This document shows, in pieces, positions 32,849 to 35,628 of a stretch of 36,096 nucleotides of DNA (position 1 is the stretch's first letter; each line of letters starts with the position of its first letter). The notes below the pieces were generated by a model. It saw only the letters and a list, made by a program, of their open reading frames with translations. It was not told the origin of the DNA and made no database searches. The position numbers and the translations under genes were made by a program. The DNA is from Microcaldota archaeon (GTDB lineage Archaea; Micrarchaeota; Micrarchaeia; Anstonellales; Anstonellaceae), in NCBI GenBank assembly GCA_026413965.1, contig JAOAJY010000002.1:76273-112368 (forward strand), written 5' to 3'.

Positions 32849-33382
32849 ATGAATAGCATGCGAAAAGCCTTTCCGAAAGAGGCTGCCTATCTTGCAGGGG
32901 CAATTGCCATAACTGTGGCTTCTGCCTACCTTTTCTCAAAATTCGAGTTTCTCAGGCAGCTTGGGTATGCTGGAGCATTCCTCATCTCCTTGATATCAAG
33001 CGCCTCTGTGCTGTTTCCTGTGCCTGGGGTGGCTGTGGTTTTCGCCATGGCTTCCTATCTTGACCCCCTTTTGCTTGGCATTGCGGCAGGCATCGGGTCA
33101 GGGCTTGGGGAAATCTCAGGGTACATGGCAGGCTATGCCGGGCACAGGGTGGTGGAGAATGCCAAGACTTACAGGCTCCACAAGGAGAAAATTGAGAAAT
33201 ACGGGGCTGCCGCGATTTTTGCCCTCGCGCTTCTTCCCAATCCAGCGTTTGACTTGGCAGGCATTGCGGCAGGGGCTCTGAGGATGCCTGCCTGGAAATT
33301 CCTGCTTTCCGCAATGGCAGGCAAAGTCATTCGCTATGTCGCCATTGCCTACATAGGCGAGGCGGCTGCGCCTTACTTCTGA
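32849..33382 (+). CDS. VTT/DedA (SNARE-associated-like) membrane protein
   Basis: 'LISLISSASVLFPVPGVAVVFAMASYLDPLLLGIAAGIGSGLGEISGYMAGYAGHR...YGAAAIFALALLPNPAFDLAGIAAGALRMPAWKF'. Confidence 0.85.
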   Translation: MNSMRKAFPKEAAYLAGAIAITVASAYLFSKFEFLRQLGYAGAFLISLISSASVLFPVPGVAVVFAMASYLDPLLLGIAAGIGSGLGEISGYMAGYAGHRVVENAKTYRLHKEKIEKYGAAAIFALALLPNPAFDLAGIAAGALRMPAWKFLLSAMAGKVIRYVAIAYIGEAAAPYF

Positions 33383-33399: not shown

Positions 33400-33515
33400 T
33401 GGGCCGGAAGAGATTTGAACTCTTGACCTTTCGATTTCAAAGCCTGCCTGAAAGCCATGCGAGGCTTCCTGAGGCATATCAGTCGAACGCTCCAACCAGG
33501 CTAAGCTACCGGCCC
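33400..33515 (-). tRNA. tRNA-Ile(GAT) containing a 41-nt intron at 37/38 (intron 33436-33476)
   Basis: Exons: GGGCCGGTAGCTTAGCCTGGTTGGAGCGTTCGACTGATA + ATCGAAAGGTCAAGAGTTCAAATCTCTTCCGGCCCA. Acceptor, D, anticodon and T stems pair; anticodon loop CTGATAA. Confidence 0.92.
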
Positions 33516-33619
33516 AAAGCCAAATTCTTCTGCCCATGATAATTAAAAAGGCTTGCCGAAAACAGTGGCAGAAGCCGCACGCTTTTAAATTCTTAAAGCC
33601 AGATTTTCCTTAGGTTTTT

Positions 33620-34825
33620 ATGCCAGAATTAATGGCGCAAAAAAGAGCGGAAGACTTGCGCAGGCAATCCGATTTCAATGCGCGCTTTCTTGGAAAAAAT
33701 TGGGAGGACTGGGCTTTCCAGTCAATGCAAAAAATCTGCGCGCAAAAAGAGGGCGAATATTCAAAAGACGGATACGCCGTGAAAATATCCCGAGAGGAAA
33801 TCCGCCTTTTGAAGGAGGGCAAGGAGATTGCCGTCTTCCCCAAAAGCCAAGCCAGCAAGCCCGCCAGCGCCCAAGATGCGGTTGATGCGGTCAAAATTGC
33901 CCAGGTTTTGCTTGGCGTGAAAGTTGATGGCATGTGGGGGCAAATCACCCAAAGAGCTTATCGGTCGCAAAATTTCCCTCAGCAGCATATTGACCAATTG
34001 GGCCAGTTTTTGACCAAACCAGCACCTAACTTATCACCTAACTTATCGTTTGTTGTGCCTGTCAAAAATACAAAAATCACAAGCCAGCAAGAGCCCAGCC
34101 AAAGGGAAATATCTCCTGCCAACCTAATGGCTTTTGACAAGCTGGTGGAAGCTGTTTCGCAGGAGATAAAAAAGCACAGCAAAAGGGGGATTGATGAGAT
34201 AAGGGAGTTCGTGTCCTCCTCGCTGCGCTTTTACTTGAACGCCTCTTCAAAAGGGCTCGCCTCAAAAGACTATCTTGTGATGGTGAATTCTGACTGGTCA
34301 AGGGGCGAGAAGCGCTTTTTTGCGGTGAATATGAGGAAGCTATTTGAAGGGCGCGCAGATTTCCTGGAGTATGCGGAAGAATGCGCCTTGGGGAAGGCTA
34401 ACCGAATGTTTTTTGGAGGCTGCAGGCTGGGCGGCAGGCATACAGGGCCAAGGTGGCAGCATGGGGCTTATATTTTATACGGGCTTGAGGATGGGAAGAA
34501 ATTTGAAGACGACCCAAGAAGAGGCGCCTCAAGGCTTTTCTACGACAACACTTTCATCCATAAAATAAGGGCGGTGCTTCATCCTTTCTCAAAGCCCAAC
34601 CAGCAATACACAGGAGGCTGCGTCGCAGTGGGCGGAAATATAACTGTTTTGCCAGGAGACAGCAGCAAAGTCAAGCGGAGGACAAGCGATATCTTGGAGC
34701 ACATAGGGCAAAACCATGAAGGAGCAGGATTTTTCGTCTACTCTGCAAATCGCAATTCAAAATTCGACTACGTCCCTGCGGGGAATTTTGAAAGGATTTT
34801 GAGGGAACTTGCCAGCGGCTTTTGA
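33620..34825 (+). CDS. YkuD_2-like (murein L,D-transpeptidase-like) protein with N-terminal PG-binding-like repeat
   Basis: PG_binding_1-like 'VKIAQVLLGVKVDGMWGQITQRAYRSQ'; catalytic-like 'KANRMFFGGCRLGGRHTGPRWQHGAYILYGLEDGKKFEDD...IHKIRAVLHPFSKPNQQYTGGCVAVGG'. No obvious signal peptide. Confidence 0.6.
   Translation: MPELMAQKRAEDLRRQSDFNARFLGKNWEDWAFQSMQKICAQKEGEYSKDGYAVKISREEIRLLKEGKEIAVFPKSQASKPASAQDAVDAVKIAQVLLGVKVDGMWGQITQRAYRSQNFPQQHIDQLGQFLTKPAPNLSPNLSFVVPVKNTKITSQQEPSQREISPANLMAFDKLVEAVSQEIKKHSKRGIDEIREFVSSSLRFYLNASSKGLASKDYLVMVNSDWSRGEKRFFAVNMRKLFEGRADFLEYAEECALGKANRMFFGGCRLGGRHTGPRWQHGAYILYGLEDGKKFEDDPRRGASRLFYDNTFIHKIRAVLHPFSKPNQQYTGGCVAVGGNITVLPGDSSKVKRRTSDILEHIGQNHEGAGFFVYSANRNSKFDYVPAGNFERILRELASGF
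34023..34046 (+). repeat. Tandem 12-nt duplication inside CDS
   Basis: 'cacctaacttat' x2, giving in-frame APNLSPNLS. Confidence 0.8.
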
Positions 34826-34878: not shown

Positions 34879-35628
34879 ATGAGGCACCAAAGCAAAGCCT
34901 GCTGCATATTGCTTGCCGCTGCCCTGGCGCTCTCTTCCTGCAAGAATGGCGAATCGCAGGCAGGCAAGGGCATGCAGCAGCCCAAGAAAGACACTGTTGC
35001 CTGGGCTGCGCCGCAAAAATATGCCCACATGCGCCCGCTTGTTGAGCGCTCTTTGCAGGAGGTCAACCGCCTTCTTCCAGACAGCTGCAAAACCTCTGAG
35101 GTGAAAGTGGTTGAGGGCGCTGCTCCGGATTACGCAGGCAGCTGGACAGTTTTCTACACGCCTTACCCATCGCCAACAATAGTCCTTGGAAGCTCATTCC
35201 TCTCTGATTCCGCGCTTGCCAAGCTGGTCATTTTTCATGAGCAATCCCATGCCTTCTTTGACTTTTCAGCGCCTCAAGAAGCCAAAAGCAGGATGGAGCG
35301 GCTTTTTTTGCAGGCTATGGGCTCCAAAAAGCCATCAGCCTCGCAAGACATCGCGCTTGAGAAAGAGCACCCGATTTTTCCCCTTTTTGATGAGTCAAGC
35401 TACTGCAAAGGCAAAAGCCCGCAGCTTGGGCATCCTTATGATGGCGCATCTGAGCTTTTCGCATCCGCATCCGCAGTCCTCCGCTTCTTCCCCTCTGAGT
35501 TCCTCTCCAGGCTGCGCAGGCTGGAGCAAGAAGACAAATCAGCCTCAAAAACCGCCAAGGAGATAGCGCGAGCTGTGCTTGAAATCTGGAAAGGCTCAAA
35601 TGTTCTCAGCCTTCCTGAGCTGGAATAA
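34879..35628 (+). CDS. Putative lipoprotein zinc metallopeptidase-like protein (HExxH)
   Basis: MRHQSKACCILLAAALALSSCKNG lipobox-like signal; 'KLVIFHEQSHAFFDF' HExxH; downstream 'DGASELFASASAV' with a possible third ligand Glu. Confidence 0.65.
   Translation: MRHQSKACCILLAAALALSSCKNGESQAGKGMQQPKKDTVAWAAPQKYAHMRPLVERSLQEVNRLLPDSCKTSEVKVVEGAAPDYAGSWTVFYTPYPSPTIVLGSSFLSDSALAKLVIFHEQSHAFFDFSAPQEAKSRMERLFLQAMGSKKPSASQDIALEKEHPIFPLFDESSYCKGKSPQLGHPYDGASELFASASAVLRFFPSEFLSRLRRLEQEDKSASKTAKEIARAVLEIWKGSNVLSLPELE

Follow-up and report, generated by a model that had tools for sequence, protein, structure and literature searches.

A divergent YkuD_2 (L,D-transpeptidase-like) protein with a PG_binding_1-like motif in a Micrarchaeota genome and its possible action on bacterial peptidoglycan

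The window, meaning the whole stretch of 36,096 nucleotides analysed, is taken from the end of a 112-kb contig of a micrarchaeal genome of 0.77 Mb. An open reading frame on the forward strand (33620–34825, ATG start, 401 aa) was confirmed as given in a first-pass annotation made from the letters alone, and its product is referred to here as P0001. A TATA-like TTTTAAATT is present ~30 nt 5′ of the frame, and an in-frame TAG at 33611–33613 closes the frame upstream, leaving no room for an extended N-terminus that could hide a signal peptide. The sequence elements cited in that annotation (QVLLGVKVDGMWGQITQRAY, HTGPRW..GAYILYGL, AVLHP and GGCVAVGG) were all found in P0001. The features of the locus are as follows.

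32849–33382, forward strand: VTT-domain membrane protein (PF09335, E = 8e-16), conserved upstream neighbour in G000 (the genome of P0001), G007 and G004
33400–33515, reverse strand: intron-containing tRNA, tRNA-Ile(GAT)-like (RF00005, 55.9 bits), between the VTT and YkuD_2 genes
33620–34825, forward strand: P0001, divergent YkuD_2 (L,D-transpeptidase-like) protein, assigned from the frame, its orthologues and profile scores
33668–33988, forward strand: N-terminal region with a PG_binding_1-like motif (VKIAQVLLGVKVDGMWGQITQRAY; core DGMWG, codons from 33926), a motif also seen in relatives
34115–34822, forward strand: C-terminal YkuD_2-like catalytic domain, residues about 166–401, from alignments and profiles
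34559–34561, forward strand: codon of His314 (NTFIHK), most likely catalytic His, from profile alignment, 20 residues before the Cys
34580–34582, forward strand: codon of His321 (AVLHP), the candidate named earlier and now the alternative catalytic His, from MAFFT alignment, spacing 13
34619–34621, forward strand: codon of Cys334 (YTGGCVAV), predicted nucleophile, from alignment

Orthologues of P0001 were located in two Micrarchaeota genomes of the same genus, each 3′ of the same VTT-domain gene, and these two, the Lac Pavin MAG JAPLWZ and SKW198 JAOAJL (Candidatus Micrarchaeota archaeon), show the same gene order as the window (acetyl-CoA-synthetase-like subunits, SdpI-like, VTT, YkuD_2). The same tRNA adjoins the orthologues in L023 and L024; the window copy, labelled Ser(gga) by ARAGORN, agrees in sequence with the relatives' tRNA-Ile(GAT), and the label was read as the product of a misplaced intron. 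With this intron-containing tRNA-Ile, a proteasome alpha subunit encoded in the window and the conserved micrarchaeal gene order, the contig was judged genuinely archaeal from its gene content. The order is VTT, tRNA-Ile, YkuD_2 in the genome of P0001 and in G004, and VTT, YkuD_2, tRNA-Ile and then a further gene, P0003, in G007. The YkuD_2 gene is thus found on differing sides of tRNA-Ile by species (L023, L024 and the window), a hint that the VTT/tRNA-Ile locus may be a variable slot. P0003 (L024, 5827–6942) has an N-terminus resembling that of P0002, the G007 orthologue of P0001 (31% over 75 residues), and a C-terminus that is NlpC/P60- or CHAP-like by eye only (DCYTFA ... HWGILA); no Pfam match was obtained for it, and relatives were found in two other same-genus genomes.

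Family assignment was made through relatives. Searched alone, P0001 gave no match in Pfam, NCBIfam, PHROGs or PDB and did not reach the PF13645 (YkuD_2) cut-off in a direct Pfam search; PF03734 (YkuD) had no match in its genome. The Pfam comparison proposed in the first-pass annotation (PF13645, PF03734 and PF01471) was accordingly negative for P0001 itself but positive for its relatives with PF13645. The orthologue P0002 was recovered from P0001 at E = 3e-4 (pairwise 5e-11) and led on to P0005 of G004 (52% identity to P0002 over the catalytic domain), which scored 23.5 bits against PF13645 (E = 4e-5; cut-off 27), and the same-genus protein P0006 scored 70.6 bits (E = 1.4e-19). With a profile of eight other micrarchaeal YkuD_2 domains, built without P0001, P0001 scored 45.8 bits, compared with at most 6.2 in 1000 shuffles. 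With seven bacterial members in the profile and the two genus orthologues taken out, the score was 20.3 versus 9.4 for shuffles, and when the whole archaeal family was left out it was 12.2 versus 6.6, the link then being weak; the alignment behind these two scores contained a bacterial row, that of Fusobacterium, trimmed at the wrong end, which was corrected for the tree. The catalytic-domain profile gave only chance matches against PDB sequences. Because the relatives match PF13645 and P0001 is recovered by profiles that leave it out, homology to YkuD_2 is considered firm on sequence grounds, and the assignment first made by eye holds.

YkuD and YkuD_2 genes are sporadic in Micrarchaeota: PF13645 was matched in 8 of 301 genomes, PF03734 in 11 of 301, and a nine-row profile in 10 of 296, a count that includes the genome of P0001 and G007, both of which are rows of that profile. 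Within the genus of P0001 the nine-row profile found a YkuD_2 gene in four of ten genomes. One YkuD_2 gene, in G027, is split over two frames (L021/L022, C3:68457–68977) by a frameshift or an assembly error. A phylogeny, as had been recommended, was computed from 16 rows; P0001 grouped with P0002 and P0005 (97/96) on a long branch (1.62), and the six proteins of its archaeal family grouped at 88/93. Archaeal and bacterial rows separated in this tree without deciding the direction of transfer, the bacterial rows being seven sequences that all come from plasmid records. Judged from the family distribution and this small tree, the catalytic domain is probably of bacterial origin ultimately. A viral endolysin origin was also considered and dropped for want of support, as no relative of P0001 that the scans could find was encoded in the viral contigs.

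Cys334 aligns with a Cys that is invariant across the archaeal alignment and across those bacterial rows that were correctly aligned. The family His pairs with His314 in the HMMER alignment and with His321 in the MAFFT alignment; His–Cys spacing is 19–20 in genus relatives, 10 in G010 and G011 and about 22 in bacteria, and His314 was favoured because its spacing of 20 is close to that of the genus relatives and the bacteria. His314 is therefore most likely the catalytic His of an ambiguous pair, and of the His/Cys pattern originally described the Cys in GGCVAV stands while the His is better placed at His314 than at His321. The catalytic His is kept throughout the aligned archaeal set except in G022, where locus L019 holds a strong YkuD_2 match (E = 7e-40) with Glu at the aligned position (RGILIEDG) that is possibly inactive or altered. 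The Arg usually expected after GC is missing from P0001, as had been remarked; bacterial YkuD_2 sequences also lack it (GCPA or GCFA), so its absence is normal for the family. In the P0001 clade (G000, G007 and G004) the family motif AHG reads ALG, with His replaced by Leu, and the conserved SN motif is lost; both losses are confined to this clade and, taken with the long branch of P0001, suggest that activity or substrate may have changed. An AlphaFold model of P0001 from a three-sequence alignment was unusable (pLDDT 31), and one of the catalytic domain of an orthologue from a shallow alignment reached pLDDT 51; in a Foldseek search with this weak orthologue model L,D-transpeptidases headed the list, the best at E = 0.063 and none significant, an outcome taken as at most consistent with the assignment.

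In the N-terminal region a DGxxGxxTxxA core motif is preceded by a helix-like stretch. The DG..G..T..A pattern was produced by 47 of 200,000 shuffles of P0001, is found once across the window's six reading frames, and reappears at the corresponding site of P0005 and, in part, in P0004. PF01471 (PG_binding_1) had no profile match at threshold in the genome. What was initially called a peptidoglycan-binding repeat is thus a PG_binding_1-like element as claimed, but a single, half-domain-sized copy below profile thresholds, and it is best described as a supported motif rather than a proven domain. The lack of a clear signal peptide was borne out by a 12-aa hydropathy scan of the first 60 residues, in which no hydrophobic segment was seen (maximum 0.16); P0001 lacks both a signal peptide and a transmembrane segment and has no export route that could be recognised. 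Most of its relatives likewise have no signal peptide, and P0006 carries a lipobox-like signal.

Across the 20 genomes of the host family, 18 contain one Mur_ligase_M protein. These matches were rejected as signs of murein synthesis since both of the proteins examined resemble FolC and have a FolD-like gene next to them; a MurC–F set is thus not apparent in these incomplete MAGs, and murein synthesis by the host itself is unlikely from its gene content. The FolC-like nature of the sole Mur-ligase match supports the earlier description of the host as an archaeon without murein. No PF04984 contractile sheath was found in the 20 genomes. One same-family genome (G013, L045, 1357–2454) encodes a protein with two PG_binding_1 matches, a C-terminus that is lysozyme-like by eye, and no obvious signal peptide.

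PF13645 is described as the 'murein L,D-transpeptidase catalytic domain family protein' of Bacteroidota, Fusobacteriota and Pseudomonadota. P0001 shares with it the domain order around the site, the R(A/T)xxxH ... xGC[IVPF] pattern, the missing Arg and a His–Cys spacing of about 20, and differs in its sub-threshold Pfam score, in the AHG His and SN motif absent from its clade, in having no N-terminal signal where several bacterial members have an evident one, and in its extra N-terminal region with the PG_binding_1-like motif. To PF03734 (B. subtilis YkuD, LdtMt, DpaA), of a related clan, it would be linked by the Cys/His chemistry expected of the family, but it lacks the GC-R pattern and, as noted, a match to that profile. 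Homologues of modular peptidoglycan hydrolases have been reported in almost 5% of the archaeal genomes covered by a published survey, with a recognised signal peptide in about a third and none in most, and Halogranum has peptidoglycan hydrolases that kill a halophilic bacterium, as was shown for Woldo, which has a Tat signal peptide (PMC12352652). P0001 resembles Woldo and Danwoldo as a domain of peptidoglycan-processing type and patchy distribution in an archaeon, and resembles most of the surveyed homologues in having no recognised signal peptide, whereas Woldo and Danwoldo belong to another catalytic class (M23, glucosaminidase) and the main text of that study mentions neither YkuD nor transpeptidase (PMC12352652). 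Murein-like lytic transglycosylases of DPANN (Pacearchaeota/Woesearchaeota) are comparable as murein-acting domains suggesting bacterial hosts or prey, but are glycan-cleaving, come from other lineages and, in one study (PMC8204110), are very large proteins (PMC8204110, PMC9723730). A search of open-access papers found no description of an L,D-transpeptidase from Micrarchaeota.

With about even confidence, we infer that P0001 is a bacterially derived, diverged L,D-transpeptidase/endopeptidase-like enzyme that would most plausibly act on bacterial peptidoglycan. Of the options listed in the first-pass annotation, horizontal transfer together with action on a bacterial wall is favoured. The catalytic domain would have come from bacteria and been retained and diversified in one Micrarchaeota family. 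At its active centre, Cys334 paired with His314 (or, less probably, His321) would react with a stem-peptide carbonyl of peptidoglycan, giving a thioester whose acyl group would then be handed on to either an amine or water. As the host does not appear to produce murein, the enzyme would most probably work on peptidoglycan belonging to a neighbouring or host bacterium, which it may reach by non-classical release or cell contact, the N-terminal motif perhaps aiding docking. Counted in favour of this reading are the PG_binding_1-like motif of P0001 and P0005, the G013 protein with its lysozyme-like end, the sporadic distribution of the genes and the bacterium-killing archaeal hydrolases, most of which have no recognised signal peptide; the absent export route and sheath, the long branch, the lost AHG His and SN motif and the lack of a direct Pfam match count against it.

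The main rival, which we regard as possible though clearly less probable, is that a YkuD_2 scaffold with its Cys/His centre has been repurposed as a cysteine acyltransferase or peptidase acting on the archaeon's own molecules, such as proteins of the S-layer or cell surface, lipoproteins or an amide in the cytosol. Such a role would suit a protein that, with most of its relatives, has no signal peptide, that has lost the AHG His and SN motif in its own clade only, and that is encoded in a conserved chromosomal neighbourhood rather than on a mobile contig in a host with no apparent murein synthesis; it fits less well with the PG_binding_1-like motif of P0001 and P0005, with the lipobox-like signal of P0006, which suggests extracellular use in the family, and with a patchy occurrence in the genus that is unlike a housekeeping role. 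Improbable, in our estimate, is an acquired gene in decay, once a bacterial L,D-transpeptidase homologue and now drifting with no function: the long branch, the lost conserved positions and the uncertain catalytic His would agree with it, but the frame of 401 codons is intact, the Cys and a His are kept at ~30% identity to the orthologues of two further species, and the neighbourhood is retained. Contamination or mis-binning, which a bacterial-type enzyme in a MAG might bring to mind, was rejected on synteny as hardly credible, given that three independent assemblies place the gene next to the same archaeal neighbours, that its contig bears archaeal markers, and that its GC3 of 0.55 is near the 0.58–0.65 of the adjoining genes.

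If P0001 does act on murein, that would point to bacterial partners of these very small archaea and pose a further question, namely by what route proteins lacking signal peptides leave the cell. The enzyme class of L,D-transpeptidase fold is in any case placed in Micrarchaeota, archaea with no apparent murein synthesis, and P0001 extends recent evidence of archaeal peptidoglycan-processing enzymes. A wider and rather speculative extension is that some Micrarchaeota deploy diverse signal-peptide-less peptidoglycan-acting proteins, through an unknown export route, to attack or attach to bacteria; this set might comprise YkuD_2, PG_binding_1/lysozyme-like and, by eye, NlpC/P60-like proteins, partly encoded beside tRNA-Ile, and would, if true, imply bacterial hosts or prey.

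Downstream of P0001 a lipoprotein-like gene (34879–35628, forward strand) encodes a lipobox-like LALSSC and HEQSHAF (HExxH); it has relatives in several Micrarchaeota, those of G007 being on other contigs, and a weak NCBIfam LppK match. An operon partnership of the two genes was rejected, as the best G007 relative of the lipoprotein is on another contig. At the contig end (35964–36080) two copies of a ~40-nt repeat with 74-nt spacing are CRISPR-like.
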